This document shows, one piece after another, positions 1,436 to 13,518 of a stretch of DNA of 13,960 nucleotides (positions are counted from its first letter, which is position 1; every line of letters begins with the position of its first letter). Both the position numbers and the translations under genes were made by a program. The notes beneath the pieces are model-generated. The model was not told where the DNA came from. It saw only the letters and a program-made list of their open reading frames with translations, and ran no database searches. The DNA lies in contig CALBZH010000681.1 of the NCBI GenBank assembly GCA_937889795.1, positions 1 to 13,960 on the forward strand. The letters run 5' to 3'. The stretch comes from an uncultured Syntrophobacteraceae bacterium (GTDB lineage: Bacteria > Desulfobacterota > Syntrophobacteria > Syntrophobacterales > Syntrophobacteraceae).

Positions 1436-1455
1436 AACTATAGCTTATTACAGTT
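1436..1455 (+). promoter_or_regulatory. Candidate lux box (LuxR-type operator) upstream of luxI
   Basis: The 20-bp sequence AACTATAGCTTATTACAGTT is an imperfect dyad: bases 1-4, 6 and 7 pair with 20-17, 15 and 14. It fits the NNCT-N12-AGNN pattern known for LuxR-family operators, with CT at positions 3-4 and AG at 17-18. Its centre lies about 44-45 bases before the transcription start implied by the -10 element at 1478-1483, the usual spacing for LuxR activators that replace the -35 contact. It is 55 bases upstream of the luxI ATG. The likely ligand is the LuxR protein at 12226-12990. Confidence 0.65.
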
Positions 1456-1477
1456 TACAAGTCTATCTTACTTCCCT

Positions 1478-1483
1478 TACTAT
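1478..1483 (+). promoter_or_regulatory. -10 element (TACTAT) of the luxI operon promoter
   Basis: TACTAT differs from the sigma-70 consensus at two positions and keeps the key A2 and T6. No good -35 hexamer lies 17 bases upstream; the lux-type box ends at 1455 and takes that place, as expected for an activator-dependent promoter. The implied start near 1489-1491 leaves a leader of about 20 bases with GGGAGGA at 1498-1504, six bases before ATG 1511. Confidence 0.5.
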
Positions 1484-1510
1484 TCCCACACATCGAAGGG
1501 AGGAATAGCT

Positions 1511-2119
1511 ATGCGTAACAAGATCATTGTTACCCGCGCGGACGACCCTGAATTGCCCACGGTCTTACTGATGAGCATGTTCCAATTCCGGCACAAGATC
1601 TTCCGTGAGAGGCTCGGCTGGGATGTCATGAGCCTAGACGGTATGGAAGTGGATGTCTTTGACGCGCTGCGGCCGGTCTACATCCTTTCCAGCGCATCCG
1701 ATGCGGTGGTCAATGGCTGCTGGAGGCTCCTCCCCACCACCGGTCCCTACATGCTGAAGCACGTATTCCCGGAACTCCTGCACGGGACCACGCCCCCCCA
1801 AACCCCGGAGGTTTGGGAGCTGAGCCGGTTCGCGGTTGACAGCAGCGCGCGGTCGCCCCAAGAGAAGAAGGTGCTCCGAACCATGTGCGGCATGGTCCAA
1901 AACGTGCTTCGCTTCGCCGAGAAAAACGGCATCCGCCAATACGTCACGGTGACCAGCGTCGCCCTGGAGCGTTACTTCCGGCACTTCGGCGTTCCCATGC
2001 GGAGGATTGGAAGCGGTGTCGCCAGCTATCTCGGCGATGTCTGCTCGGTCGCCTGTTACATCGACATAAACGACGAGCTCCGGGGCGCGGTGAGGCAGCT
2101 GGCGGCCGGACTGGAGTAA
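1511..2119 (+). CDS. luxI: Acyl-homoserine-lactone synthase (LuxI family)
   Basis: Product of 202 aa, normal for the family. It joins the acyl group of an acyl-ACP or acyl-CoA to the amine of SAM and lactonises it, releasing methylthioadenosine. All the residues usually invariant in LuxI proteins are seen in order: R27, F31 and W37 (FRHKIF...LGW), D48 and D51 (VDVFD), R72 (CWRLL), F86 (KHVFPEL), E103 and R106 (WELSRFAV). The C-terminal half carries the acyl-binding VTVTSVALERYF segment; the threonine here is often linked to 3-oxo-acyl preference, only a weak hint. Start ATG 1511 is supported by GGGAGGA six bases upstream and by the family N-terminus. It is the first gene of the long plus-strand run and lies directly behind the lux-type box, suggesting positive autoregulation. 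The next gene starts 6 bases after its stop. Confidence 0.95.
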   Translation: MRNKIIVTRADDPELPTVLLMSMFQFRHKIFRERLGWDVMSLDGMEVDVFDALRPVYILSSASDAVVNGCWRLLPTTGPYMLKHVFPELLHGTTPPQTPEVWELSRFAVDSSARSPQEKKVLRTMCGMVQNVLRFAEKNGIRQYVTVTSVALERYFRHFGVPMRRIGSGVASYLGDVCSVACYIDINDELRGAVRQLAAGLE

Positions 2120-2125
2120 CGGCTC

Positions 2126-2623
2126 GTGCGAATACTCCACATCGGGTATACGGAAGAGAAACTGGAAAGGCGTTACCCGCCCCAATTGTTAGAGCAAGCC
2201 CAGTTCAGCAGGTGCCAGAGCCTGGAGGATGCCTTGGCCATGCTGGAGCGGGAAGACCCTTTTGATTGGATCCTCGTGGAGGAAGGGATCCTGCTCGGGG
2301 CGCCGATTGGGATGCTGCGGAAGCTCCTGGAGCACAGGCGTAAGATCCCGGTGGCGCTGCTTAACACTACGCCCCCCCATACCTTCGATGTTGTCTGCGC
2401 TACCGAGCATGAGGAACGCTGCACCAGGATCTTCTTCTGCACCATCTCTGATCCTGGTTCGATCCAGGTCTGTCAGGAAGAGGGGAGCATCGGGGCAGTG
2501 GTGGAATATCAGGCCGAGCATTACATCGACAACCAGACGCCGCAGGAGAGTGCACGACTCATCGTCAGGTATCTGGACCGAGCGGTGGCGGCCAACAGGA
2601 GAGAGAAAGATGGTCGTGAGTGA
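2126..2623 (+). CDS. Unrecognised 165-aa protein between luxI and a methyltransferase
   Basis: I do not recognise this family. It starts at GTG 2126, six bases after the luxI stop, with CTGGAG as a weak ribosome site. The protein is cytoplasmic in character, with no signal peptide, no membrane segment and about equal acidic and basic residues. The first 80 residues alternate predicted strands and helices: MRILHIGYT, LEDALAMLERE, FDWILVEEGILL, a basic helix LRKLLEHRRK, then IPVALLN. This is loosely like a receiver or other Rossmann-type alpha/beta domain, but without a convincing phospho-acceptor Asp pocket. Several cysteines (in SRCQ, DVVCA, ERCTR, FFCTI and QVCQE) are scattered with no metal-site spacing. 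It overlaps the next gene by 14 bp, so the two are translationally coupled and likely act in the same pathway or regulation. Confidence 0.8.
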   Translation: MRILHIGYTEEKLERRYPPQLLEQAQFSRCQSLEDALAMLEREDPFDWILVEEGILLGAPIGMLRKLLEHRRKIPVALLNTTPPHTFDVVCATEHEERCTRIFFCTISDPGSIQVCQEEGSIGAVVEYQAEHYIDNQTPQESARLIVRYLDRAVAANRREKDGRE

Positions 2624-3269
2624 AACGGAGATTGCAGCGTTTTGGGACCGGAAGTTTCTTAAGGAAAACCTGATGTGGGGACTGGAACCGAGCCTTTGTG
2701 CGGTTAGCGCGGCGTCCTTCCTCGCAGAACGTGGGGGCAGCGGCGATCTTCTTGACATCGGCTGCGGTTACGCCCGGGACTCCGGGTTCTTCGCGACCCT
2801 CGGGTTCCGGGTGACCGGGGTGGACATCTCGGAAGTAGCCATTAACAAGGCACGCAAGCTCTATCCCGAGATCGCTTTCAGGGTCATGGACATCGCGGCT
2901 CTGAATCTCCCGGAGGGCTCCTTCGATGTCGTCTTCGGAAACTTCATCCTCCACCTTTGCACCGCCCCCGAGAAACGAAGCGAAATCCTGAATGAGGCGC
3001 ACCGGGTCCTAAAACCGGGGGGATACCTCTTCATCAGCGTGGCCTCGGTTTGGGACGCCGATTACGGGGAGGGGGAATATGTCGGATCAAACCTCTTCAA
3101 GAACGAGAGAGGGGTGATCAAGTACTACTACAATGAGCCCGCAGTACATCAGGAGTTCGCCTCTTTCATACTGATCGAGGTTAGGGAGATCGTCGAGGAG
3201 CATAACCACGACCGGCCGCACTGTCATCGGAGCTATTTCATTGTCGCCAAAAAAACAGGAAAGGAGTGA
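2610..3269 (+). CDS. Class I SAM-dependent methyltransferase
   Basis: Product of 219 aa. SAM-binding motif I is LLDIGCGYARDS (47-58), the acidic strand is VTGVDISEVAI (68-78), motif II/III are RVMDIAALNLPEGSFDVVFGNFILH (read as two blocks, about 91-99 and 105-115), and the post-motif HRVLKPGGYLFISV is typical of UbiE/Tellurite-resistance-like methyltransferases acting on small molecules. Start ATG 2610 has AGGAGAG six to seven bases upstream; GTG 2616 is an alternative. It overlaps the upstream orphan gene by 14 bp, and its stop lies two bases before the start of the radical SAM gene, so all three are coupled. The substrate cannot be read from sequence; the setting suggests tailoring of the cluster's product. 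Confidence 0.88.
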   Translation: MVVSETEIAAFWDRKFLKENLMWGLEPSLCAVSAASFLAERGGSGDLLDIGCGYARDSGFFATLGFRVTGVDISEVAINKARKLYPEIAFRVMDIAALNLPEGSFDVVFGNFILHLCTAPEKRSEILNEAHRVLKPGGYLFISVASVWDADYGEGEYVGSNLFKNERGVIKYYYNEPAVHQEFASFILIEVREIVEEHNHDRPHCHRSYFIVAKKTGKE

Positions 3270-3271
3270 CC

Positions 3272-4378
3272 ATGCAAGAAACCCAACCCCGTTACGTTTT
3301 GAGAGGCCTGGACAGCTACAGCCGCGAGGAACTGGCCAACTATTGGAAATCCTTCGATCCTCTCGGTGAAGACCCGAAGATCCTCGGAATCGGCCTGAGC
3401 TGCAGCCATGTCTGCAACCTCCGCTGCGTCTACTGCTACGCCGGTCCCCTCTCCCCGAAAGCGGACGAGCTCACTGTACACGAGCAGAAGGAGATCATTT
3501 CACAGGCTCGTGCCTTGGGTGCCCGGATGGTCATCGTCTGCGGCGATGCCGAGCCACTCATGGACAGGAGTCTCCTCCCCATGGTGAAGCACTGCCACGA
3601 CCTCGACATTACTTCCGTCGTGGTCACCAACGCGATTCCCATGGGAGACGACCGCCTGGCCCTTACTGTCCACGGCATGGATGCCAAGAGCGTGGTCAAC
3701 TACCTGCGTGACCACGGTGCTTCCGTCATCGCCAAAATGGACAGTGTCCATGAGGAGACCTACAATGCCATCGTCAATGTCCATGGTTCCTGGGCGAAGT
3801 TCCGCCTCGCCGTGGACCGGCTGGTGGATGCAGGCTTCACCGCCTTCGAAGAGCGCTACGGAGTACGGGTGACCCGGCTTGCCTTCAGCGGTGTAGTGAT
3901 GAAGCAGACCCTGATCGAGGTTCCGATGATGCGCGACTTCGCCCACGTCCGCGGAGCCCAGTTCATCTGCAAGCTCCCTTCGTTGGTCGGGACCGCACTG
4001 GACAACCTGGACTGCATGTTCCCGGTCGAGCGCTACGAGGAGATCCGCGCCATCCTGGCACAGTACACGGAGAAGCGGGAGACCCTCATGGTCGACACCC
4101 CGCGCTGTATGGCCTGGCACTACGGCCCGGTAATCGGGATCAACGGCGACATTCGGGAGTGCTACACCTCTGACTGCAAGGGGGACCAGTTCATCGGCAA
4201 CATCCGCCAGACCTCCCTCAAGGAGCTGATCGTGAAGCGCAACCGGATCTACGACATAAGCACCGACAACTTCTGTCCGGTAAAGACCCGGATCAACCAG
4301 GAGTTAGTGGCGCAGGGGAAGGACCGACTCTGGCAGGTCCTTCCAGAGAACCGCTGCGCCAAGATGATGAGCTACTAG
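3272..4378 (+). CDS. Radical SAM enzyme with SPASM/twitch-like cysteine-rich C-terminus
   Basis: Product of 368 aa. The radical SAM [4Fe-4S] motif is C48-x3-C52-x2-C55 (CNLRCVYC), with an additional C44 just before. A GGE-like segment CGDAEPL (90-96) follows the second strand. The C-terminal part has C279 (PRCMAW), then C297 and C302 in GDIRECYTSDC, C335 (FCPVK) and C362, arranged like the auxiliary-cluster SPASM or twitch domains, including the INGDIREC turn that precedes one ligand. Such enzymes modify peptides or small molecules by 5'-deoxyadenosyl-radical chemistry. Start ATG 3272 has AAGGAG five bases upstream; GTG 3266 would be within that site. No obvious precursor peptide is encoded beside it, so a small-molecule or protein substrate is equally possible. 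A degenerate stretch follows. Confidence 0.9.
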   Translation: MQETQPRYVLRGLDSYSREELANYWKSFDPLGEDPKILGIGLSCSHVCNLRCVYCYAGPLSPKADELTVHEQKEIISQARALGARMVIVCGDAEPLMDRSLLPMVKHCHDLDITSVVVTNAIPMGDDRLALTVHGMDAKSVVNYLRDHGASVIAKMDSVHEETYNAIVNVHGSWAKFRLAVDRLVDAGFTAFEERYGVRVTRLAFSGVVMKQTLIEVPMMRDFAHVRGAQFICKLPSLVGTALDNLDCMFPVERYEEIRAILAQYTEKRETLMVDTPRCMAWHYGPVIGINGDIRECYTSDCKGDQFIGNIRQTSLKELIVKRNRIYDISTDNFCPVKTRINQELVAQGKDRLWQVLPENRCAKMMSY

Positions 4379-4705
4379 CGACAAGGGGGGAACCATGGAG
4401 CCACTCGTGGTCCATGTTGGAAAGGTGTCGCGTTGCGCCGTAGCGAAATCGACATTGACCAGAACCTCCCAAGCAGTTCATGAAAAAGATCGAGCGCACA
4501 GGGTACGTCAGGCACTGAAAGGTGGGTCTCCCGGCACAACGGATTCGGAATGGAAACGGATCCTATTCATTCGAGGTGAACCGGTATCGGAAAGGGTACC
4601 TCCTTGAAGGGAAAGGAGAACATCGCGGTCACCCTCGAGCACCTTTACCATCAAAAAAGGCAGCAACGCGAGATGCCCTGGCTCTGGCAGGGTGAACTGA
4701 TATGA
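4379..4705 (+). pseudogene. Candidate decayed gene between the radical SAM and YrdC-like genes
   Basis: This 345-base gap has no clean reading frame but shows coding-like pieces in several plus-strand frames. One frame reads ALRRSEIDIDQNLPSSS then stops (4483); another reads SYSFEVNRYRKGYLLEG (from 4561); the first frame resumes as KENIAVTLEHLYHQKRQQ and ends PWLWQGELI at a TGA at 4703-4705. The last piece uses GC-ending codons like the neighbours. An ATG at 4395 with AAGGGGGG four bases upstream opens a 70-codon frame (to 4607), but its codon use has far less GC3 than the flanking genes, so I do not call it a protein. A frame-shifted remnant is the best reading; the parent family is not recognised. 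Confidence 0.35.
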
Positions 4706-4723
4706 ACCATTCACGGGAGGAGT

Positions 4724-5359
4724 ATGGAAACTAAAATCATGAAAGCCTCGACGGAGGCGATAGAGTACGCGATACAGCTGCTCAAACAAGGGGCGGCGGT
4801 GATCTTCCCGAGCGATAACATCTACGGGATGGTGGCCAACGCAGAGGATCCAGAGGCTGTCAAGGAGATCTACGCACTCAAGGGGCGCGACGAGGGAAAG
4901 CCGCTTGGTTTCATGACCAACAGGAACCACGCCACAAGGTGGGGGTCCTTCAGCATCGACGCGAGCCGTGCCCTGGAGTTCTGGCCCTGCGGTCTTACCA
5001 TCATCGTCCCCAAGTACGCGAGCGTCCCCGACTACATCACTAAGGGGTTCAACTCTATCCTTTTGAGCTGCCCGGACGAGACCTGTGCCGAACTGGCAGC
5101 ACAGGCCGAATTTCCGCTCGCCTGCACCTCCGCCAATCTCTCGGGGGAGCTGGCGGTATCGAGCTGCGACCAAGCGATGGCGGTCTTTGATGGAAAGGTA
5201 CCGCTGATTATCGACGGCGGGGAGAGTAGCCGGAAGTCGGCCGGGACCATCATCGACTTCTCCAGGACTCCGCCGACGGTGCTGCGCATCGGTGCCTTTC
5301 CGCTCGAGAACCTGCGCCGGGCGGTCCCCAGCCTGATTGTGGCGAGCCGGCTGATATGA
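4724..5359 (+). CDS. YrdC/Sua5-type L-threonylcarbamoyl-adenylate synthase paralogue
   Basis: Product of 211 aa, the size of single-domain TsaC/YrdC or YciO proteins. The known family makes a carbamoyl-adenylate from bicarbonate, an amino acid (threonine) and ATP for tRNA t6A. Visible motifs are the N-terminal IFPSDNIYGM (27-36), the K53-x-R55 of LKGRDEGKPLGF, the S136-A137-N138 of CTSANLSGE, and IIDGG (162-166) with TIIDF. The KxR/SxN tetrad is therefore intact. The arginine usually found in the central VRxP segment is replaced (LLSCPDE). A very close GGAGG precedes ATG 4724; ATG 4739 is an alternative. Its stop overlaps the start of the next gene (ATGA). No TsaD, TsaB or TsaE partner lies nearby, so a role in carbamoylating the cluster's product is a reasonable inference over a housekeeping tRNA role. 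Confidence 0.8.
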   Translation: METKIMKASTEAIEYAIQLLKQGAAVIFPSDNIYGMVANAEDPEAVKEIYALKGRDEGKPLGFMTNRNHATRWGSFSIDASRALEFWPCGLTIIVPKYASVPDYITKGFNSILLSCPDETCAELAAQAEFPLACTSANLSGELAVSSCDQAMAVFDGKVPLIIDGGESSRKSAGTIIDFSRTPPTVLRIGAFPLENLRRAVPSLIVASRLI

Positions 5360-6285
5360 CACTTGTCCGCTGGCACCTGCTCCTGGCCGTCCTCTTTGTC
5401 ACGCTCACGGAGCTACCGCCGCCGGTATCGGGAGAGGAGAGGCGGAAGGAGACGGTGAGGCAGAGGACCCCGATGGGGTTGGCACCGCTTCCGCCGCCGG
5501 TTCGGGAACCCGGGATGCCTGATCTTCCCCAGGAGGTTCACGGCCCGGATGCAGCGTTGTCGGCCGCTCCGGCACGGGTGTCGTCGGTGGACCCGGAAGA
5601 GGTTCAGCCTTCTACCATGGAAGCGACTTCGGCGAAGGAGGCGCCCTTAAAGCCAGCGGGGAGGTACGGGACGGTAACCCGGCTTAACTACCGCTACGCG
5701 GTGAACGGGGAGAGCGGCATCGCTCTTGGACACTTTCATCTCTTCCCGAACAGCACGCTCATTGCGGCAACCGTCGAGTTCTTTACCAGGAAACGGAGCA
5801 GGGAGCCCTTCGAGTTCAGTACTTTCGCCGCCGAGGTAAACCTCGGGCGTCCCTTTGTCCCCTCGACCCAGTGGGGAAACACCTTCGGCTGGGTGGCCCG
5901 CTTCCAGTCCACCCCAGGTGCCTACTTGGTGGTAAGCGGCGGTCTGCAGTGGGACATATCCCGGACCCCGGGATTAACACTTCCGTTGCAGTGGAAGAGC
6001 TTCATTCAGGTATTAGCGAAGAATCGGGACGATGCGGGGACGGTGGATATCTTCAACTGGTACGAGTTTGTCCTGATCGACAAGCGGCTCATCCTCCGGG
6101 GGACCAACGTCTGGTTCCTCATCCCGGGAGGGAAGGACGCGGTCCGCCTGACCCAGGATCTGGTTGTCCCGGTGCACAACCGGTTCGACCTCTACCTGAG
6201 GCATTTTTTCCAGAACAACGGTTCCATTGACGAGACCCGCAGCGACGGGTCGCAGTTCGCCGTCGGCCTCCGTTACACTTTCTAG
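5356..6285 (+). CDS. Exported outer-membrane beta-barrel candidate with Pro-rich N-terminal linker
   Basis: Product of 309 aa, family not recognised. Residues 1-26 form a Sec signal peptide (VRW then a hydrophobic core LLLAVLFVTLTEL, ending PPPVSG). Residues about 27-100 are rich in Pro, Ala, Glu and Ser and look disordered. From about residue 105 to the end, alternating polar and aromatic/hydrophobic strands repeat (TRLNYRYAV, TLIAATVEFF, YLVVSGGLQWD, FDLYLRHFF), and the protein ends GLRYTF: a C-terminal phenylalanine in an amphipathic strand, the usual signal for BAM-assembled outer-membrane proteins. The start overlaps the YrdC-like stop by 4 bp, so the two are coupled. Next to an MFS gene, it could give the product or its precursor passage through the outer membrane. 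Confidence 0.75.
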   Translation: MTLVRWHLLLAVLFVTLTELPPPVSGEERRKETVRQRTPMGLAPLPPPVREPGMPDLPQEVHGPDAALSAAPARVSSVDPEEVQPSTMEATSAKEAPLKPAGRYGTVTRLNYRYAVNGESGIALGHFHLFPNSTLIAATVEFFTRKRSREPFEFSTFAAEVNLGRPFVPSTQWGNTFGWVARFQSTPGAYLVVSGGLQWDISRTPGLTLPLQWKSFIQVLAKNRDDAGTVDIFNWYEFVLIDKRLILRGTNVWFLIPGGKDAVRLTQDLVVPVHNRFDLYLRHFFQNNGSIDETRSDGSQFAVGLRYTF

Positions 6286-6305
6286 CCGACGTCACGAGGT
6301 GAGGG

Positions 6306-7505
6306 ATGCAAATTGAAAATAATCGCTCCATCTGGACCTTTGCCTTTACCGGATACATGTTCATGACCGTGGTGATCTGCTCCGGGGTCTCGGTCATCGT
6401 GCCGGCGATACCGAACATAATGCGGGAGCAGGGGATCTCGGCCGGCTTCATCACCGCGGCCTTCGTATCGCTGCTGACCGGGAGGTTCCTCTCCTCCATC
6501 TTCACCGGGTATCTCCTTTTGAGAGTGCGCCCGCAGCAACTCCTCTACACCTCGTTCGCGCTTCATACGCTAACGATGGCGTTCCTTGCCTTCGCGCAGG
6601 GGGGGAGCGCCTTTACCACCCTCCGCTTCCTGGAGGGGATCTTCGAGGGGATCGTTTCGGTGGTGCTGCAAGTGATTGTGATCGCTCTTTCCACACCGGA
6701 GGACCGAGGGGTCAAGATGGGGTACATGCAGTCCGCCTTCGGGGTCGGCTTCATCGTGGGGCCCATGATAGGGAGCCTCTCTATGCGCCAGTACGGTTCC
6801 TCCGGGGTCTTCTGGGCAGTGGCGGGCCTCATGGTGATCTGCATCATCTGGCTCACCCTAATCTTCCGCAGTCTCTCCGGTCAGATGACACAGTCTCCCC
6901 CCCAGAAGCTCACCTTCAGCCTTGACTTCCTGAAATTCATCCCGTTTTACAGCGCGCCGATTCTGCAGCGCCTCTTGGTGGTGGCCTTTGCGATGCTGAT
7001 CCCGCTATACCTAGTAGACCGGTTCCACCTCGCTTCACACCAGATCGGCTACTTCTTCACCCTTTCCGCAGTGATCACCTCCACCACGATGCCCTTCACC
7101 GGGAAACTGGGGAAGCACCCCTGCTGCAACTATTTTGTGGTGGCGGCTATGTTGGTAATGGGCCTGTCCATCCTGGGGATGGGAGTGACCTCCGACCCGA
7201 TCATCTTCACCGCCTGCTTCGTGGCAGAGACGTTCGGTTTCGCGGTGATGGCCCCCAACTCGATGAAGATCTTCGGGGACGTCGTATCCGAGCACCCGCG
7301 CCGTGGTGAGGTGGTGGGGACTTCGTCGAGCTTTCGGGAGCTTCTGAACATTGTGCTCTCTTTCGCCCTTATTCCGCTGTACCAGTTCAGCATGTCGCTC
7401 CCTTGGATCATCCTCGCGATGGTATGCATGCTCCTCTCCCTCCCCTACCTGAGGAACGCTCGGCGTGGCGAACGCGTGGCGGCCCGCGTACCCTCCGGCT
7501 CCTAG
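6306..7505 (+). CDS. MFS transporter, DHA1-like exporter
   Basis: Product of 399 aa with about 12 hydrophobic segments, the usual size for the major facilitator superfamily. The first helix is FAFTGYMFMTVVICSG; VSVIVPAIPNI follows, as in drug:H+ antiporters of the DHA1 type. The loop 2-3 signature is present in a relaxed form (LLTGRFLSSIFTGYLL), and AFGVGFIVGPMIGSL (helix 5, motif C-like G-x3-GPxxG) favours export. Start ATG 6306 has GAGG and GAGGG just upstream, 20 bases after the preceding stop. Placement within a biosynthetic run suggests it exports the cluster's product and may give self-resistance; the substrate is not known. Confidence 0.88.
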   Translation: MQIENNRSIWTFAFTGYMFMTVVICSGVSVIVPAIPNIMREQGISAGFITAAFVSLLTGRFLSSIFTGYLLLRVRPQQLLYTSFALHTLTMAFLAFAQGGSAFTTLRFLEGIFEGIVSVVLQVIVIALSTPEDRGVKMGYMQSAFGVGFIVGPMIGSLSMRQYGSSGVFWAVAGLMVICIIWLTLIFRSLSGQMTQSPPQKLTFSLDFLKFIPFYSAPILQRLLVVAFAMLIPLYLVDRFHLASHQIGYFFTLSAVITSTTMPFTGKLGKHPCCNYFVVAAMLVMGLSILGMGVTSDPIIFTACFVAETFGFAVMAPNSMKIFGDVVSEHPRRGEVVGTSSSFRELLNIVLSFALIPLYQFSMSLPWIILAMVCMLLSLPYLRNARRGERVAARVPSGS

Positions 7506-7526
7506 GTCTGCGAAAAGGAGAAGAGC

Positions 7527-7904
7527 GTGGCAAAGAACTGTACAAAAAAATCTAGTAGGCCCATTTGGTCCAGGAGAAGCCGGACGGGATGTCGCTGAGA
7601 GGAGTATGTCCCTTGCTACTTTGCGTCGAGCTGGGCATGGAAGCGGTTCCCATCGCCTGGATCGACCTGGTCACCCCCTGCGTTGGCTTCTCGCTGGAGG
7701 ACCACCCCTCAGCTCCCTGAACCGTAACTTCAACCCGGTGCAGCTGGTGCCGGTGCTGTAGAAAGTCTTCAACAACGAGAGAACCGGTTCCGGCTCAACC
7801 CCGAGCAGGAGGGGCTGAACCGAGATTTTTGTAAGGTCTTCATTAACTGCAAGCTCAACATCTACACCTATGACAGCGCCCTAGGCAACGTCGACATGAA
7901 ATAG
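7527..7904 (+). pseudogene. Frame-shifted remnant of a gene between the MFS and first LeuD-like genes
   Basis: A start-like GTG at 7527 has AAGGAG seven bases upstream and opens VAKNCTKKSS, but that frame ends at 7598. Coding-like sequence then continues in other frames: EKPDGMSLRG and ELGMEAVPIAWIDLVTPCVG (about 7574-7720), then LNRNFNPVQLVPVL, an in-frame TAG, and KVFNNE (about 7717-7780), and finally ENRFRLNPEQEGLNRDFC with NCKLNIYTYDSALGNVDMK, ending at a TAG at 7902-7904. The last two pieces are rich in GC-ending codons and read like a real protein C-terminus. At least two frameshifts and one nonsense codon are needed to join them. The parent family is not recognised. It suggests the operon once carried another enzyme or transport protein here. 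Confidence 0.55.
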
Positions 7905-7926
7905 ACTAACAGACAAGGGGGAAGTG

Positions 7927-8415
7927 ATGGATTACAAGGGCAGGGTCTGGAAATTCGGCGACAACATCGATACCGACGTGATTTTCCCGTCACAGTACAT
8001 GCTCCTTCCGACCATCGAGGAGATGAAGGTGCACACCTTCGAACCCTTGGTGGCGAACTTCCACGAAAAGGTACGTCCGGGCGACATGATCCTTGGGGGG
8101 GAGAACTTCGGCGGGGGTTCCTCGCGGGAACAGGCGCCGTCGGTTTTGAAGGCGGTGGGGATCACCTGCATCATTGCCAAGTCCTTTGCCCGCATCTTCT
8201 ACCGCAACGCCATCAACATCGGGCTTTTGGCCATCGTCTGCAACTGTTACGACGAGGTGCACGAGGGAGACGTCCTGAGTGTCGATCTAGCGTGGCAGAT
8301 CATCGAGGTGGAGGGAAGCGAGCTCCGCTTCGGCTTTAAGTCCTTCCCTCCCCACGTCACCCAGATGGTGGCGGCCGGTGGTCTCATCGAATACATCAAC
8401 GGCTCGGGCCGCTGA
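7927..8415 (+). CDS. Aconitase-superfamily small subunit (LeuD-like), first copy
   Basis: Product of 162 aa, archaeal/short LeuD type. It is the swivel domain of an isopropylmalate isomerase or homoaconitase-like hydro-lyase and works with the LeuC-like subunit encoded 21 bases downstream. Seen: KFGDNIDTDVIFPSQYM (9-25), the GENFGGGSSREQA substrate-binding loop (about 56-68) and FARIFYRNAINIGL. The substrate-recognition stretch after PxxY, which from memory reads YLRT in homoaconitase and YLVY in isopropylmalate isomerase of methanogens, reads YMLL here; the Arg used for the extra carboxylate is missing. ATG 7927 is preferred to GTG 7924 because of the spacing to AAGGGGGAAG. No leuA, leuB, homocitrate synthase or dehydrogenase is present, so leucine or lysine biosynthesis is unlikely. 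Confidence 0.9.
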   Translation: MDYKGRVWKFGDNIDTDVIFPSQYMLLPTIEEMKVHTFEPLVANFHEKVRPGDMILGGENFGGGSSREQAPSVLKAVGITCIIAKSFARIFYRNAINIGLLAIVCNCYDEVHEGDVLSVDLAWQIIEVEGSELRFGFKSFPPHVTQMVAAGGLIEYINGSGR

Positions 8416-8436
8416 AAAGAAAGGAGAAGTCTGCAA

Positions 8437-9702
8437 ATGGCAATGACACTGTCGGAAAAAGTGCTGGCCCGGGCCGCGGGCAAAGATGAGGTGACGCCGG
8501 GGGAGATCGTCCAGACCGAGATCGACTGGATCATGACCAACGACGCCACCACCCACGTGAGCATCGACATCTTCGAGCAGAAGCTCCTGAAGCAGGAGAT
8601 CAAGCACCCGGAGCGGGTGATCTGGGTGGTGGACCACAACATCCCGGCGGAATCGGTGGAGACCGCCAACGTGCACCGCAAGCAGCGGATCTTCGCTGGA
8701 AAACACGGCTTCAACAGCCATGTCGGGGAGGGGATTTGTCATCAGCTCCTGGTGGAAAAGTACGTTCTTCCCGGTCAGGTGGTGATCGGCGCCGACTCCC
8801 ATACCTGCAGCCATGGCGCCCTAGGCGCCTTCGCCACCGGCGTCGGCTCCACCGACTTGGTCGGGGCGATCCGGGAGGGGAGCCTCTGGTTCATGGTCCC
8901 GGCCACCCTGAAGTTCCACTTGACTGGAAAGCTCAGGGAAGGAGTCACAACGAAAGACCTCATCCTTACCATCATCGGCGACATCTCAGCAAACGGCGCC
9001 AACTATCGTGCCATGGAGTTTTCTGGCCCGGCGGTCAGCACGCTCTCGTTCGAGTCGCGGCTTGCCCTGTGCAATCTCGTGGTGGAAGCAGGGGGCAAGA
9101 ACGCCATCATGGAGGCCGACGAGAAGGTGGTCGGCTATCTCAGGCGCAACCGTCCCCAGGGGGCCACCGGGGTGGTCCTTCAAGGGGACCAGGGGGCGGC
9201 TTACGAGAAGTTCTTCCACTACGACCTCTCCCAGATCGCTCCGGTGGTCGCCTGTCCGCACGCGGTCGACAACGTCTCTCCGATCATCGCAGTCGAAGGG
9301 AGGGAGATCGATCAGGTCTTCGTCGGATCCTGCAGTAACGGCCGGATAGAGGACCTGCGGATCTTGGGCCGAATTCTCAAGGGGAACCGGGTGCACTCCC
9401 GGGTGCGTCTCGCTGTCTCCCCTGCGTCGACTAGGGTCTTCCTGCAGGCCCTTGAGGAGGGACTCATCTCTACCTTCCTTGAGGCAGGGGCGATGGTCCT
9501 GAATCCAAACTGCAGCACCTGCTGGGGGGGGTGCCAGGCGGTGGTCGGAGACGGTGAGAGGCTTCTCTCCACCGGAACCAGGAACTTCAAGGGGAGATCC
9601 GGGAGCGCCTTAGCCGAGGTCTTCCTTGGTTCGGTGTACAGCGCAGGAGCTGCCGCCCTTGCCGGCAAGATAGTGAACCCGATAAACTACCTGGGCCTCT
9701 AG
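8437..9702 (+). CDS. Aconitase-superfamily large subunit (LeuC-like), first copy
   Basis: Product of 421 aa, matching the short archaeal-type LeuC/HacA size. It would hold the [4Fe-4S] cluster that activates a hydroxyl of its substrate for dehydration and rehydration. Cluster ligands are C299 (VGSCSNGRIEDL) and the pair C359 and C362 (NCSTCWGGC), the last with an additional C366. GADSHT (118-123), HQLL (102-105) and RAMEFSG (191-197) are conserved active-site segments. The small subunit lies 21 bases upstream; AAGGAG is ten bases before ATG 8437, and ATG 8443 is an alternative. The first twelve codons are nearly identical to those of the second LeuC-like gene, so the two D-C pairs probably arose by duplication and then diverged. 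The exact substrate is unknown. Confidence 0.92.
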   Translation: MAMTLSEKVLARAAGKDEVTPGEIVQTEIDWIMTNDATTHVSIDIFEQKLLKQEIKHPERVIWVVDHNIPAESVETANVHRKQRIFAGKHGFNSHVGEGICHQLLVEKYVLPGQVVIGADSHTCSHGALGAFATGVGSTDLVGAIREGSLWFMVPATLKFHLTGKLREGVTTKDLILTIIGDISANGANYRAMEFSGPAVSTLSFESRLALCNLVVEAGGKNAIMEADEKVVGYLRRNRPQGATGVVLQGDQGAAYEKFFHYDLSQIAPVVACPHAVDNVSPIIAVEGREIDQVFVGSCSNGRIEDLRILGRILKGNRVHSRVRLAVSPASTRVFLQALEEGLISTFLEAGAMVLNPNCSTCWGGCQAVVGDGERLLSTGTRNFKGRSGSALAEVFLGSVYSAGAAALAGKIVNPINYLGL

Positions 9703-9726
9703 GCCATTAGAGCAAGGAAGGAAAAA

Positions 9727-10233
9727 ATGGAAAACAATCTTACCGGAAACGCTTGGAAATTCGGCAACAACATCGACACCGACATCATCATGCCCTCCCA
9801 GTATCTCTCCTGGCCGCTGGAGGAGTCCTACCGCCTCGCCTTCGAGCCGCTCCGGAAGGGGTTCGCCGATCTGGTTACCCCGGGGGACGTGATCGTGGCC
9901 GGCTCCAACTTCGGGAGCGGGAGTTCCCGCGAGCAGGCGGCGCAGGCGATCTTCCGGATGGGGATCCGGGCCGTGATCGCGAACTCCTATGCCCGCATCT
10001 TCTACCGCAACGCCCTCAATATCGGGCTTTACGCCATCGAGTGCCCTGAGGCCGAGGCGATAATCGAGGAAGGGAACCGAGTCAAGATCGACCTGGACCG
10101 GGGAGTGCTGCTAAACCTTTCCACTGCTCGCGAGGCCTCCTTCGGCCCGTTCCCGCAGAACCTCCGGAAGATCATGGAGGCGGGAGGGCTGGTCGAGTAC
10201 ATGAAAAAACGGAACCATCAGGAGGCGAGGTAA
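9727..10233 (+). CDS. Aconitase-superfamily small subunit (LeuD-like), second copy
   Basis: Product of 168 aa with the same architecture as the first copy: KFGNNIDTDIIMPSQYL (11-27), the loop GSNFGSGSSREQA and YARIFYRNALNIGL. The residues after PxxY are YLSW instead of YMLL, so the two small subunits probably bind different acyl parts; neither has the Arg seen in homoaconitase. The ATG at 9727 has AAGGAAGG five or more bases upstream, and the LeuC-like partner begins four bases after its stop. The C-terminus is basic (KKRNHQEAR). It is about as similar to the first copy as to archaeal homologues by eye, so if it is a duplicate, it is an old one. Confidence 0.9.
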   Translation: MENNLTGNAWKFGNNIDTDIIMPSQYLSWPLEESYRLAFEPLRKGFADLVTPGDVIVAGSNFGSGSSREQAAQAIFRMGIRAVIANSYARIFYRNALNIGLYAIECPEAEAIIEEGNRVKIDLDRGVLLNLSTAREASFGPFPQNLRKIMEAGGLVEYMKKRNHQEAR

Positions 10234-10237
10234 CGCA

Positions 10238-11494
10238 ATGGCAATGACACTGGCGGAAAAGATACTGGCCCGCAAGGCCCTCAAGAAGGAGGTCGCTCCT
10301 GGAGAACTCGTCACCGTCGCGGTCGATCACACCATGACCTATGACCTCTTCTGCCCCTCGGTGGTGGAGGCGTTCAAGGAGATGGGGTTCAAACAGGTCT
10401 GGAATCCGAACAAGATCGCCATCATCTTCGATCACCTAGTGCCGGCGAAAAACGCGAAGGAGGTGGAGCACTTCAAGGTGAGCCTCGCCTTTGCCCGTGC
10501 CCAGGGGATCACCAAAGTGCACCAGCACGATGGGATTTGCCACCAGCTCTTGTTTGAGAAGGGGTACTCCCGCCCAGGAGACGTGATCCTCGGGACTGAC
10601 TCGCACACGGTCACCACCGGTGGGGTCGGAGCCTTCGCCACCGGGATCGGCTACACCGAGATGGCGTCGATCTGGGGTACCGGAGAGATCTGGCTCAAGG
10701 TACCGGAGACGCTGCGTTTCGAGATCGAGGGGGAACTGGCGCCGGGGGTATCGGCCAAGGACCTAATACTGAAGATCATCGGCGACATCGGGCACGCCGG
10801 GGCGACCTACAAGGCGATGGAGTTCGGAGGCACGCTCATTGGCCGGCTCAGCGTGGCGCAGCGCCTCACCATCGCCAACATGTCCGTCGAGGCGGGGGCC
10901 AAGGCGGGGCTCATGGCCCCGGACGAGAAGGTTCTGGAACACTACCGGGAACTTGGAATCACCGACTTCCCCATGCTCCGCCCCGATCCCGATGCAGCCT
11001 ACCGCTCCGTTTCCCGCTACGACGCCTCGAAGCTTGTCCCCATGGTCTCCTGCTCGCCGGCGGTGGACAACGTGATGCCTCTCTTCGAAGTGGCGGGTGA
11101 GGAGGTCCGGAAGGCATTTCTGGGCTCCTGCACCAACGGCAGGCTTGAGGACATCGAGATGGCGGCGTCGCTGGTCCGCGGGAAGAAAATCCATCCTAAG
11201 GTGGAGATGATCGTCACCCCCGCCTCCCGCACCATCTACCAGCAGGCGATTCAAAGCGGTGCAGTTGCCGCACTGGTTGAAGCGGGGGCCTACGTTACCG
11301 TTCCAGCCTGCGGCCTCTGTTCCGGGATCAACGGCGGGGTGGTTGCCGACGGAGACACCATTATAAGCTCGAACAACCGGAACTTCCTGGGAAGGATGGG
11401 AGGACCGACAGCTCGGGTGATCCTCGCCTCCCCGGCATCGGTCGCCGTGTCGGCGCTGGCGGGCAAGGTGGTCGACCCGAGAGAGTATCTGTAG
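10238..11494 (+). CDS. Aconitase-superfamily large subunit (LeuC-like), second copy
   Basis: Product of 418 aa. Iron-sulfur ligands C298 (LGSCTNGRLEDIE), C358 and C361 (ACGLCSG) are present, as are DHLVPA (65-70), HQHDGICHQLL (95-105), GTDSHT (119-124) and KAMEFGG. The CGLC form with GGVVADGDTIISSNNRNF resembles archaeal homoaconitase/isopropylmalate isomerase large subunits more closely than does the first copy. It begins four bases after the second LeuD-like stop and its own stop is immediately followed by the GTG of the last methyltransferase, so the three are translationally linked. It would form an independent heterodimer with the second LeuD-like subunit; whether the two pairs act in sequence (dehydration, then rehydration at another carbon) or on two substrates is not known. 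Confidence 0.92.
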   Translation: MAMTLAEKILARKALKKEVAPGELVTVAVDHTMTYDLFCPSVVEAFKEMGFKQVWNPNKIAIIFDHLVPAKNAKEVEHFKVSLAFARAQGITKVHQHDGICHQLLFEKGYSRPGDVILGTDSHTVTTGGVGAFATGIGYTEMASIWGTGEIWLKVPETLRFEIEGELAPGVSAKDLILKIIGDIGHAGATYKAMEFGGTLIGRLSVAQRLTIANMSVEAGAKAGLMAPDEKVLEHYRELGITDFPMLRPDPDAAYRSVSRYDASKLVPMVSCSPAVDNVMPLFEVAGEEVRKAFLGSCTNGRLEDIEMAASLVRGKKIHPKVEMIVTPASRTIYQQAIQSGAVAALVEAGAYVTVPACGLCSGINGGVVADGDTIISSNNRNFLGRMGGPTARVILASPASVAVSALAGKVVDPREYL

Positions 11495-12169
11495 GTGCAA
11501 GAGATGGTGATAACCAGGGCGGAAATCCGAAAGTTGGCTGAGGAGCGCATCCGGAGGGGAGACAGCACCGGGTGGTTCGAGGAGCTCTACCGGCGCGCCG
11601 AGGGGAATCCCAATGCCATTCCGTGGGCCGACCTTGAGCCCAATTCGAACCTGGTCTCCTGGGCGGAGAGGACCGGACTGGCCGGCGTGGGGCGGCTCGC
11701 CCTCAAGGTAGGATGCGGACTCGGCGACGACGCCGAGGAACTGAGCCGGCGTGGTTTCGAGGTCACAGCCTTCGACATCGCGCCCACCGCCATAGATTGG
11801 TGCCAGCGACGATTCCCCGAGTCGCGGGTAGACTACCAGATAGCCGATCTCTTCGATCCACCGGAGAGTTGGGTGGGGCGCTTCGACTTTGTGCTGGAGT
11901 CGTACACCCTGCAGTCATTCCTTCCGGAACTCCGTCCGCGCGCCATGCGGCAGGTGGTGCGCCTGGTGGCTCCGGGAGGAGCCCTGCTTGTCATCTGTCG
12001 TGGCCGCGAGCAGGGGGAGACCCCTGAAGGGGTCTGGCCGGTCCCCCTCTCACGGGAGGAACTGGGCAGGTTTCAGGAATTGGGACTTGAGGAAGCGGCC
12101 TTCGAGGATTTGCTGGACAACGAAACCCCGCCGGTACGGAGATTCCGCGCCCTCTACTTCCGCCCCTGA
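11495..12169 (+). CDS. SAM-dependent methyltransferase, thiopurine-methyltransferase-like
   Basis: Product of 224 aa. The N-terminal WFEELYRRAEGNPNAIPWADLEPN (in two blocks, about 27-39 and 40-50) resembles the substrate-side helix of TPMT-like methyltransferases. Motif I is KVGCGLGDDAEELSRRGF (71-88), and the acidic ribose-binding residue is D94 in VTAFDIAPTAIDWC. Then follow YQIADLFDPP and FDFVLESYTLQS. GTG 11495 follows the LeuC-like stop directly; ATG 11504 is an alternative with no better ribosome site. It is the last gene of the run. The substrate class for these enzymes is broad (thiols, halides, carboxylates), so methyl-ester or S-methyl formation on the product are both possible. Its stop is 56 bases from the end of the convergent luxR gene. 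Confidence 0.85.
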   Translation: MQEMVITRAEIRKLAEERIRRGDSTGWFEELYRRAEGNPNAIPWADLEPNSNLVSWAERTGLAGVGRLALKVGCGLGDDAEELSRRGFEVTAFDIAPTAIDWCQRRFPESRVDYQIADLFDPPESWVGRFDFVLESYTLQSFLPELRPRAMRQVVRLVAPGGALLVICRGREQGETPEGVWPVPLSREELGRFQELGLEEAAFEDLLDNETPPVRRFRALYFRP

Positions 12170-12225
12170 AAAAAGCCCTGCCCCTGCCTATAGCGTGGCG
12201 TAAGGCGGAAGAGATTAGCTGGGGA

Positions 12226-12990
12226 CTATTGCGAGCCTCCGGCCCTTCCCAGGGCTAGCCCTGGGAAGATGAGCCCCCGCGATACAGCCTGCACAACGGC
12301 ATGCAGCCGGTTTGACACCTGCAGCTTGTCCGTCGCGTTCTGCAGGTGGAAGACGACGGTCCGCTCAGAGATCCCCAGGATCTGGGAGGTCTCCCACGAC
12401 GTTTTCCCTTCCGCCGCCCAAAGGAGGCACTCCGTCTCGCGTTGGCTCAGCTTGGTGGGCGGGGGGAGTTCCACCGTCTTCACAGCCCGAAGCACCGCCT
12501 CCAAGATGTGGAATGATATGGCATGGAGCATCGGTATAGCCTTGTTGATCCGAAGGCTGGTCTTGCTGTGGTCCTCGCAGGAGGCGAGGCTCAACATTGC
12601 CGATTCACCCTGCGGGGTGTGCACAGGGATGCTTACTCCACTGCGGAGGCTGTGTTCCCGAGCGGCTAACATGAGGGTTCGCGCTTTCTGGCTCTGTTCG
12701 CCCTTAAAGGCCTCCTCCCAGACGTAGGGGATGACGCTAGTGACACAGTGGAGCACGGTGGGATCGATCTTTTCATACCCTTCGGCTACGTAGTGCTGGC
12801 GCCACTCTTCTGGGTAGTCACTGATGATGAACTGGTAGGGCATGACGAAGGAGTTGCGCAACTGAATGGCAAAGAGGAAGTAGTCGAAGCCGTAGCTGTT
12901 ACAGAGTAGCCTCAAGAACGAGTTAATCTCGGATATAGACTCTGCCTCTGCTATCATTTGAACCAGCTTTGAGTATTTTAACCTATTCAC
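12226..12990 (-). CDS. luxR: LuxR-family acyl-homoserine-lactone-binding transcriptional regulator
   Basis: Product of 254 aa, two domains. Residues about 1-170 form the autoinducer-binding domain, with W63, Y67, D76, P77, W91 and G118 at the places of the TraR residues W57, Y61, D70, P71, W85 and G113, all conserved. Residues about 177-240 form the GerE-type helix-turn-helix: LSQRETECLLWAAEGKT, then ILGISERTVVFHLQN, with E185, L189 and G195 in place. It would therefore be a true AHL receptor, not an orphan solo with a changed pocket. Start is GTG 12990; the ATG at 12992 is out of frame and ends at once. It lies at the far end of the cluster from luxI and points toward it. The likely site of action is the lux-type box at 1436-1455. 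A short tail FPGLALGRAGGSQ beyond the usual end includes a perfect DNA palindrome. Confidence 0.95.
   Translation of the reverse strand: MNRLKYSKLVQMIAEAESISEINSFLRLLCNSYGFDYFLFAIQLRNSFVMPYQFIISDYPEEWRQHYVAEGYEKIDPTVLHCVTSVIPYVWEEAFKGEQSQKARTLMLAAREHSLRSGVSIPVHTPQGESAMLSLASCEDHSKTSLRINKAIPMLHAISFHILEAVLRAVKTVELPPPTKLSQRETECLLWAAEGKTSWETSQILGISERTVVFHLQNATDKLQVSNRLHAVVQAVSRGLIFPGLALGRAGGSQ
12245..12268. repeat. Perfect 24-bp palindrome in the 3' end of luxR
   Basis: CTTCCCAGGGCT is followed directly by its exact reverse complement AGCCCTGGGAAG. It encodes the FPGLALG tail of LuxR. In RNA from either strand it can form a 10-bp GC-rich stem with a CUAG tetraloop. It sits between the convergent operon end and luxR, where a bidirectional terminator would be expected, but there is no adjacent U-run on either strand. 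Confidence 0.75.
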
Positions 12991-13062
12991 ATTCTTTCCC
13001 TACCCCGCGTTCTCTCAAAGTAAGACGCCTTATCCAGCCTTTTCCGGTGCTCGAAGGCTGTG

Positions 13063-13085
13063 ATTATATTGATGCAATAATATAA
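13063..13085 (-). promoter_or_regulatory. Putative luxR promoter with overlapping 22-bp dyad
   Basis: On the minus strand a perfect TATAAT (13068-13063) lies about 70 bases before the luxR GTG, with no good -35 hexamer 17 bases upstream. It overlaps a near-perfect dyad (13064-13085): TTATATT pairs with AATATAA around a central TGCA, 9 of 11 base pairs matching. The placement over a -10 element is that of an operator. It does not match the CT-N12-AG lux-type pattern, so the binding protein is unknown; it could also be simple AT-rich sequence. Confidence 0.4.
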
Positions 13086-13274
13086 GTTATAAAAATGTTA
13101 TTTAAAATTATTAATATTATAGTTTGAAAAAAAATACAACTTTTTTGATCATGCTTGAGCCGCTAAAAGTTAGATTTTATTGAGGAGATTTGTTTTTTCT
13201 TCTTCGGGTGGGGTGGGGGATTTTCATATGCATTGCGTGCCCTGTCTGGGCGGAGGTGCTGAGAGGTGGGTCGG

Positions 13275-13518
13275 ATGAAAAGGACATTCTCATGGTTAGT
13301 GCTGCTGCTCTTCATCGCCGCTTGCACCGCCCAGGACTGGGTGCTGCTGGAGCCGAAAGCAGATCTACTTCATTCCCTCAGTCAACAGCGAGGGGGTTCT
13401 GGCTAGGTCAGAGGTGCTGGTAAAGCTCCTTGAGCGGGAGACCGGCTACTTCTTCGTTTGTGCTGTCACGACGAGCTATCTGGTACCGGTCGGCACCAAC
13501 AAGTGGGATTTCGCCTGA
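13275..13518 (+). pseudogene. Frameshifted, truncated PhnD-like phosphate/phosphonate-binding lipoprotein
   Basis: ATG 13275 opens a lipoprotein signal peptide: MKRTFSWLVLLLFIAAC with the lipobox cysteine at residue 17, then TAQDWVLLEPK. The frame runs to a TAG at 13404-13406. From about 13360 the +1 frame carries the expected continuation QIYFIPSVNSEGVLARSEVL, KLLERETGYFF and TTSYLVPVGTNKWDFA, ending at a TGA at 13516-13518. This matches the first 80 or so residues of PhnD-type periplasmic binding proteins (IPSVN...VLAR...LLExETG...TSYxxV...GTNK.DFA), which are normally about 300 aa. A single-base indel near 13358-13363 explains the shift; a small deletion appears between SYL and GTNK, and the rest of the gene is missing. 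No transporter partner genes are visible. Confidence 0.7.

Follow-up and report, generated by a model that had tools for sequence, protein, structure and literature searches.

Signalling by acyl-homoserine lactones (AHLs) is already in print for Geobacter and its relatives (statements on published work refer here to the cited sections of each paper). Desulfuromonas soudanensis possesses LuxI and LuxR, and extract from its cultures switches on an AHL reporter (PMC4914508); Geobacter uraniireducens Rf4 stands on a list of luxR-linked clusters (PMC5872303); and the LuxI/LuxR homologues of Leptospirillum are said to be similar to those of Geobacter uraniireducens (PMC4187201). Arrangements in which luxR and luxI lie many genes apart have been described as a 'complex topology', with examples in Agrobacterium and Rhizobium (PMC3386692). 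On the biosynthetic side, the mycoplanecin cluster brings together a LeuD-like domain and a radical S-adenosylmethionine (SAM) protein, with absent steps drawn from primary metabolism (PMC10817943). The stretch studied here, 13,960 nt of contig CALBZH010000681.1 from an uncultured Syntrophobacteraceae bacterium (hereafter the window; positions refer to the whole stretch), holds a row at 1436..12990 in which luxI and luxR bracket genes for enzymes and presumed export proteins. With a probability of roughly 0.55, we read this row as what would be a horizontally spread biosynthetic cassette for an exported small molecule, lying here beside a LasI/LasR-type circuit.

Comparison with described systems

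An earlier note on this DNA held that AHL signalling is hardly described in Geobacter-type bacteria, and that luxI and luxR set apart with a pathway between them are unusual; the kinship of the window with Geobacter was a guess of that note. Both points give way to the literature: novelty of AHL signalling in Geobacter relatives is contradicted by the reports on Desulfuromonas and the luxR-linked clusters (PMC4914508, PMC5872303), and the arrangement corresponds to the complex topology named above (PMC3386692). The luxR-linked clusters resemble the window in having lux genes beside biosynthetic genes, in one case in a Geobacter, but they are clusters recognised by antiSMASH, whereas the window set is without a polyketide synthase (PKS), a nonribosomal peptide synthetase (NRPS) or another standard core (PMC5872303). 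The Rf4 cluster, compared through its listing and not its gene content, may or may not resemble the window cassette (PMC5872303). The circuit of Desulfuromonas soudanensis WTL, a metal reducer with a positive reporter assay, shares LuxI and LuxR with the window but adjoins homologues of ImcH and CbcL, and no biosynthetic cluster is named there in the cited sections (PMC4914508). The mycoplanecin cluster shares a LeuD-like domain and a radical SAM protein with the window and obtains its LeuB and LeuC from primary metabolism; unlike the window, it yields an NRPS product, includes an isopropylmalate synthase-like enzyme and, in the cited sections, comes with no mention of YrdC (PMC10817943).

Two further clusters, on plasmid pDE of Cereibacter sphaeroides (L007) and in Methylosinus sporium (L003), are like the window in that a radical SAM protein of the wider family (30% and 39%, respectively) lies beside leucine-type enzymes, but they contain an isopropylmalate synthase-like enzyme and have asparagine synthase, AurF and adenosine monophosphate (AMP) ligase as partners; the stretches compared gave no LeuCD or YrdC match. 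The Cereibacter region (9965-17522), flanked by IS66, encodes a radical SAM protein, a methyltransferase, an isopropylmalate/homocitrate synthase, a pyridoxal phosphate enzyme and an asparagine synthase, and resembles a plasmid-borne biosynthetic cluster. The Methylosinus region (8748-16889) encodes an AurF-like protein, the radical SAM protein (39%), an AMP ligase, an isopropylmalate synthase, a class III aminotransferase and an RraA-like protein, with a TonB receptor nearby. For the window's own gene set no description was found in the open-licence PMC literature, and the earlier proposal of a small-molecule pathway outside the known classes has gained ground, no matching class having been found and the core being grouped in two Bacillota genomes.

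Conservation of the core genes

Judged by comparison of gene content, the core genes are a conserved group and not a chance row. The core consists of a radical SAM enzyme, the methyltransferase MT1 and two separate LeuDC-type [4Fe-4S] dehydratases, joined in two of three genomes by a special YrdC. In the window these are:

2610..3269, + strand: MT1, SAM-dependent methyltransferase, core gene (PF08241; start preferably 2610)
3266..4378, + strand: radical SAM enzyme with extra conserved cysteines, core gene (PF04055; start GTG 3266 or ATG 3272)
4724..5359, + strand: YrdC/TsaC-like carbamoyl-AMP synthase with altered amino-acid site (TIGR00057)
7924..8415, + strand: LeuD1, dehydratase small subunit, loop YMLLPTIEEM, core gene (TIGR02087)
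8437..9702, + strand: LeuC1, dehydratase large subunit, class 1, core gene (TIGR02086; tree)
9727..10233, + strand: LeuD2, dehydratase small subunit, loop YLSWPLEES, core gene (TIGR02087)
10238..11494, + strand: LeuC2, dehydratase large subunit, class 2 (CGLC), core gene (TIGR02086; tree)

The radical SAM family is small and sharply bounded, with 44 of 48 matches at E <1e-58 and the next at 2.5e-15. Of 84,980 species genomes covered by a pattern-limited scan, three gave relatives; within the class of Desulfosporosinus the gene was present in 1/82 genomes, namely in Desulfosporosinus sp. PR itself, and viral contigs gave three weak matches only, at 21-28% identity. The genomes compared below (Desulfosporosinus sp. 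PR, Clostridium sp. N3C and Methylosinus sporium) are drafts.

Desulfosporosinus sp. PR encodes relatives of the window's radical SAM enzyme (54% identity), YrdC (46%), MT1 (46%), LeuD1 (59%), LeuC1 (53%) and LeuC2 (55%). One and the same contig carries LysR, metK, radical SAM, a major facilitator superfamily (MFS) transporter, YrdC and a LeuC/LeuD pair, along with a methyltransferase, an alpha/beta hydrolase and a 405-aa protein; after the last of these the order is MT1-LeuD1-LeuC1-LeuD2-LeuC2-methyltransferase. Its LeuD2 is nearer to LeuD1 of the window (49%) than to LeuD2 (45%). In Clostridium sp. N3C (MT1 42%, LeuC1 46% and LeuC2 47% identical to the window) the set is divided between the ends of two contigs, the first with MFS and radical SAM genes and the second (L037 2-8733) starting with MT1, a third LeuC-like protein, two LeuDC pairs and a 350-aa protein, together with class II tRNA-synthetase-like and ATP-grasp proteins and an adjoining LysR. 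LysR genes adjoin the cassette in both Bacillota genomes, and both hold extra LeuCD outside it. The core genes are grouped in the two Bacillota, but luxI was found in 0/3 draft genomes that carry the radical SAM gene.

In the radical SAM enzyme itself (PF04055, 46.8 bits vs a cut-off of 29.5), C48, C52 and C55 of the CX3CX2C motif are invariant in 29 aligned rows, and so are the further cysteines C90, C279, C297 and C335; alignment A1 comprised 29 of the 44 strong matches, with the other 15 (some short) and 4 weak ones left out. The structure model has a predicted local distance difference test score (pLDDT) of 90.5; the folds closest to it are those of SkfB, SuiB, MoaA and viperin-like proteins (12-18% identity). 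Foldseek and VIA-align listed no close structural relative, which is no proof of absence; the enzyme may be of the twitch type.

The YrdC-like enzyme

YrdC proteins were aligned in 14 rows, comprising the window, Desulfosporosinus and 12 rows chosen from 120 listed of 203, with residues numbered as in Pyrococcus Sua5. The search behind the list was not sensitive, because the Desulfosporosinus YrdC is missing from it. Among the contig sizes given with the radical SAM and YrdC matches, the one common to both lists was that of the window's own contig (56,071 bases). Five rows are termed cluster-type here, namely the window, Desulfosporosinus and three metagenome proteins grouped by identity (44-70%); only the first two are placed in a cassette by gene context. 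The KxR/SxN motif is kept in 14/14 rows. In the cluster type, T33 is replaced by S in 4/5 and T35 by N in 5/5, R121 is lost in 5/5 and S181 is replaced by G in 4/5, while the other rows keep T33, T35, R121 and S181 in 9/9. The window protein has S for T33 and G for S181 and keeps R195, and thus does not show the complete threonine site.

KxR/SxN bind adenosine triphosphate (ATP), and T33, S181 and R195 form the threonine site (PMC10321239). TsaC/Sua5 and the window protein share the family score, KxR/SxN and R195, but the other threonine-site residues are changed in the cluster type. Altered threonine-site residues combined with a kept ATP motif suggest that the enzyme may perform the same carbamoyl-adenylate chemistry on an amine other than threonine.

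The two dehydratases

Both LeuC proteins retain the three cluster cysteines and both LeuD proteins the GSSRE motif. They pass the subfamily models TIGR02086 and TIGR02087, which span isopropylmalate and homoaconitate dehydratases; they miss the leucine equivalogs (TIGR02084, 160.7 and 162.2 vs 245.85; TIGR02083, 420.4 and 437.1 vs 610.65) and score below the cut-offs of the homoaconitase equivalogs HacB and HacA. A tree of 12 large-subunit rows unites the three LeuC2 rows at 100/100 and keeps them separate from the remaining LeuC of these genomes. The LeuD1 loop (YMLL) and the LeuD2 loop (YLSW) differ from each other, from the YLRT of homoaconitase (row 2pkp) and from the loops of aligned isopropylmalate isomerases of known structure. 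We take a YLRT-type small-subunit loop to be a mark of homoaconitase. The loop of the small subunit determines the substrate (PMC7308503), and we infer from the loops that the two dehydratases would act on two different substrates with non-polar side chains. Scans with Pfam and NCBIfam families found neither a LeuA-like synthase nor a LeuB-like dehydrogenase among the window genes. A plain leucine or lysine operon was rejected, since LeuC and LeuD lie below the leucine and homoaconitase equivalog cut-offs and a synthase and dehydrogenase are lacking in the window.

Accompanying genes and layout

The remaining features between the lux genes are:

2126..2623, + strand: 165-aa protein of no family (starts 6 bases past luxI, overlaps MT1)
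5356..6285, + strand: secreted protein, possible outer-membrane barrel (sequence only; signal peptide and C-terminal F by eye)
6306..7505, + strand: MFS transporter, presumed exporter (PF07690, 1.4e-34)
7779..7880, + strand: gene scrap resembling the C terminus of the 405-aa Desulfosporosinus protein (blastx; the frame's stop codon is at 7902-7904)
11495..12169, + strand: MT2, SAM-dependent methyltransferase (PF08241)

All genes named in the earlier note are open reading frames at or close to the positions given there, and its description of one-directional enzyme and export genes agrees with the eleven + strand genes counted between luxI (1511-2119, +) and luxR (12226-12990, -), the outer-membrane protein being a by-eye reading of a sequence with no family. 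Genes overlap or are spaced by <= ~25 bases within the blocks luxI-radical SAM, YrdC-MFS and LeuD1-MT2, and two gaps, 4379-4723 (345 bases) and 7506-7923 (418 bases), split the row into these three blocks.

The 165-aa protein gave no Pfam or NCBIfam match at E 0.01 (weak, chance-level Pfam matches only, E 0.05-0.09) and no blastp match at 1e-5 in the comparison stretches L001 (Desulfosporosinus), L002, L003 and L007. The secreted protein likewise matched no Pfam or NCBIfam family beyond chance level, and its single-sequence structure model is poor (pLDDT 43.8). In blastp at 1e-5, the window MFS did not match the MFS proteins of L001 or L002. A methyltransferase gene lies 3' of LeuC2 in both the window (MT2) and Desulfosporosinus, the pair being without mutual match at E 1e-3. 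Upstream of the row, 221-1063 encodes a methyltransferase of BioC/trans-aconitate type (best NCBIfam model trans-aconitate 2-methyltransferase, below its cut-off); it is not counted in the cassette here, although it may or may not belong.

The scrap at 7779-7880 encodes 34 aa with 47% identity to the C terminus of the 405-aa protein of Desulfosporosinus (L001:12649-13866), with a blastx score of 31.6 bits vs 23.1 for the best of 1000 shuffles, the control being plain base shuffles. The 405-aa protein precedes MT1-LeuD1 in Desulfosporosinus, and the scrap precedes LeuD1 in the window. The scrap suggests loss of one ancestral gene: by its sequence, the ancestral cassette probably had a gene for the 405-aa protein, which the local lineage would have lost. 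The 405-aa protein had no match in NCBIfam at 1e-8 or Pfam at 1e-4, and was found neither in Clostridium N3C or Methylosinus (0/2) nor in plasmids; a cysteine motif seen by eye makes a second radical SAM protein possible. The gap at 4379-4723 holds no recognisable gene, with nothing above 19.2 bits against Desulfosporosinus and Clostridium proteins, and may be another relict.

The lux genes and possible control by AHL

The elements of the putative circuit are:

1436..1455, no strand assigned: lux-box-like dyad AACTATAGCTTATTACAGTT (CT-N12-AG; dyad scoring)
1511..2119, + strand: luxI, LasI-like AHL synthase (PF00765, 2e-33; LasI 1ro5, 2e-37; Shine-Dalgarno-like gggagg)
12226..12990, - strand: luxR, LasR-like AHL-binding regulator (PF03472 and PF00196)

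The earlier statement that a complete AHL synthase and a LuxR with its key residues bracket the row is borne out by family scores and alignments. LuxI scores 115.9 bits vs a curated cut-off of 24 for Autoind_synth (PF00765), and LuxR 119.3 bits vs 23 for Autoind_bind (PF03472, 1.3e-34) and 61.2 bits vs 23.5 for GerE (PF00196, 7.1e-17). The closest PDB matches are LasI for LuxI (2e-37) and LasR for LuxR (6.5e-35); in the corresponding alignments LuxI keeps R, F, W, D, D, R, E and R, and LuxR keeps W, Y, D, P, W and G as well as helix-turn-helix residues, all of which we take to be the conserved or essential ones. The dyad at 1436-1455 shares 2 bases with a weak -35 element (TTTACA 1454-1459; the second hexamer, TACTAT, ends at 1483), and lux boxes often overlap the -35. 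A second, fuller dyad at 1431-1450 (8/10 pairs) is without CT-N12-AG and overlaps the first. Around luxR, a perfect 20-base palindrome, TCCCAGGGCTAGCCCTGGGA, lies at 12247-12266 within the 3' end of the gene and is the window's only 20-mer with 10/10 pairs; an A+T-rich stretch (12991-13200) lies upstream, and the lowest GC value of the 1000-base profile (0.497) falls at 12501-13500.

Searches with PF00765 found no luxI in 3/3 draft genomes with the radical SAM gene, while the same search detected the known luxI of an Ensifer plasmid; AHL-binding LuxR (PF03472) was not found in Desulfosporosinus sp. PR or Clostridium sp. N3C, and had one match in Methylosinus. Since luxI was found in none of the three drafts, the lux genes are local and not part of the cassette core, and luxI is ruled out as a core member. 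Among 120 of 673 LuxI rows, a LuxI 80% identical to that of the window is listed with 5 contigs, which measure up to 716,060 bases. That size is given for none of the 48 radical SAM matches, and the radical SAM list has no contig size in common with the 120 LuxI rows; going by listed sizes, a near relative of the window luxI seems to be located on a long contig that lacks the radical SAM gene. Quorum control of the cassette is plausible from its position and a weak dyad.

Weighing the readings

Several findings speak against the cassette as described. The score of the dyad at 1436-1455 (6/10 pairs) was equalled in 208/2000 shuffles of the 200 bases before luxI, and the dyad is therefore not significant. 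The YrdC protein exceeds the cut-off of the TsaC equivalog for threonylcarbamoyl-AMP synthase (TIGR00057, 131.9 bits vs 123.2), so that the protein may still be an ordinary TsaC, and no cluster-type YrdC was found in Clostridium N3C, where the sole YrdC family gene lies on another contig in a 383-aa open frame. LeuC1 of the window and of Desulfosporosinus pair at just 86/81, and the LeuD tree splits class 1 and class 2 at 31% of bootstraps each, leaving these classes unsupported. For four window proteins (the MFS, the secreted and 165-aa proteins, and MT2) the other clusters offer no significant counterpart. Finally, the Clostridium radical SAM gene is interrupted by one in-frame TAA, which together with the scrap in the window makes decay possible.

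The alternative that survives best, although we consider it unlikely, is that the cassette is a genuine biosynthetic unit with its own promoters and the lux pair an unrelated neighbour regulating other genes. It would account for the failure to find luxI in the other three drafts, the LysR genes adjoining the cassette in both Bacillota, the 80% identical LuxI on a 716-kb contig with no radical SAM match listed, and the weakness of the dyad. The packing of the genes argues the other way: luxI, the 165-aa gene, MT1 and radical SAM follow one another with a 6-base gap and overlaps, which makes one transcript likely, and luxR ends the row 56 bases past MT2.

A primary or cofactor pathway of keto-acid chain lengthening (leucine, lysine, coenzyme B precursors), with no natural product, seems distinctly improbable to us. 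The dehydratases do pass the isopropylmalate/homoaconitate subfamily models and YrdC the TsaC equivalog, but no LeuA-like synthase or LeuB-like dehydrogenase is among the window genes, further LeuCD lie outside the cassette in both Bacillota genomes, and presence is patchy (three genomes in the pattern-limited scan, 1/82 in the Desulfosporosinus class). Least probable of all is that the local copy is a decaying pathway whose ancestral product is no longer made: the companion-gene scrap and the unexplained 345-base gap would fit, but the remaining genes are open, both LeuC and the radical SAM enzyme keep their Fe-S cysteines, and the lists give several member sequences, on 8-9 contigs, for the window radical SAM as well as for its YrdC.

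Under the cassette reading, AHL made by LuxI would bind LuxR, which would act near 1436-1455 and turn on luxI together with the genes downstream. Each of the two dehydratases would take a different diacid bearing a non-polar side chain (2-alkylmalate type), their precursor being supplied by primary metabolism, as the lack of a LeuA synthase or LeuB dehydrogenase in the window would imply. The radical SAM enzyme would alter an unreactive carbon, and the YrdC-like enzyme would link bicarbonate and a non-threonine amine to AMP, giving an activated carbamate that could be transferred or ring-closed; the methyltransferases would cap the product, and the MFS transporter and secreted protein would export it. 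The order of steps, the precursor and the product are guesses.

Significance

A wider proposal, which we advance tentatively and with some doubt, is that the core may represent an anaerobic natural product class without description, in which a radical SAM enzyme and two distinct isopropylmalate-type dehydratases work with a YrdC repurposed from transfer RNA (tRNA) modification to the carbamoyl-adenylation of a different amine, and that the cassette would have spread across phyla with its regulators swapped (AHL control here, adjoining LysR genes in Bacillota). If this is right, anaerobes would harbour a compact cassette, free of PKS and NRPS, with a product that would be hard to foretell from sequence, AHL would be a possible switch for it, and a universal tRNA-modification enzyme would have been recruited to small-molecule synthesis.

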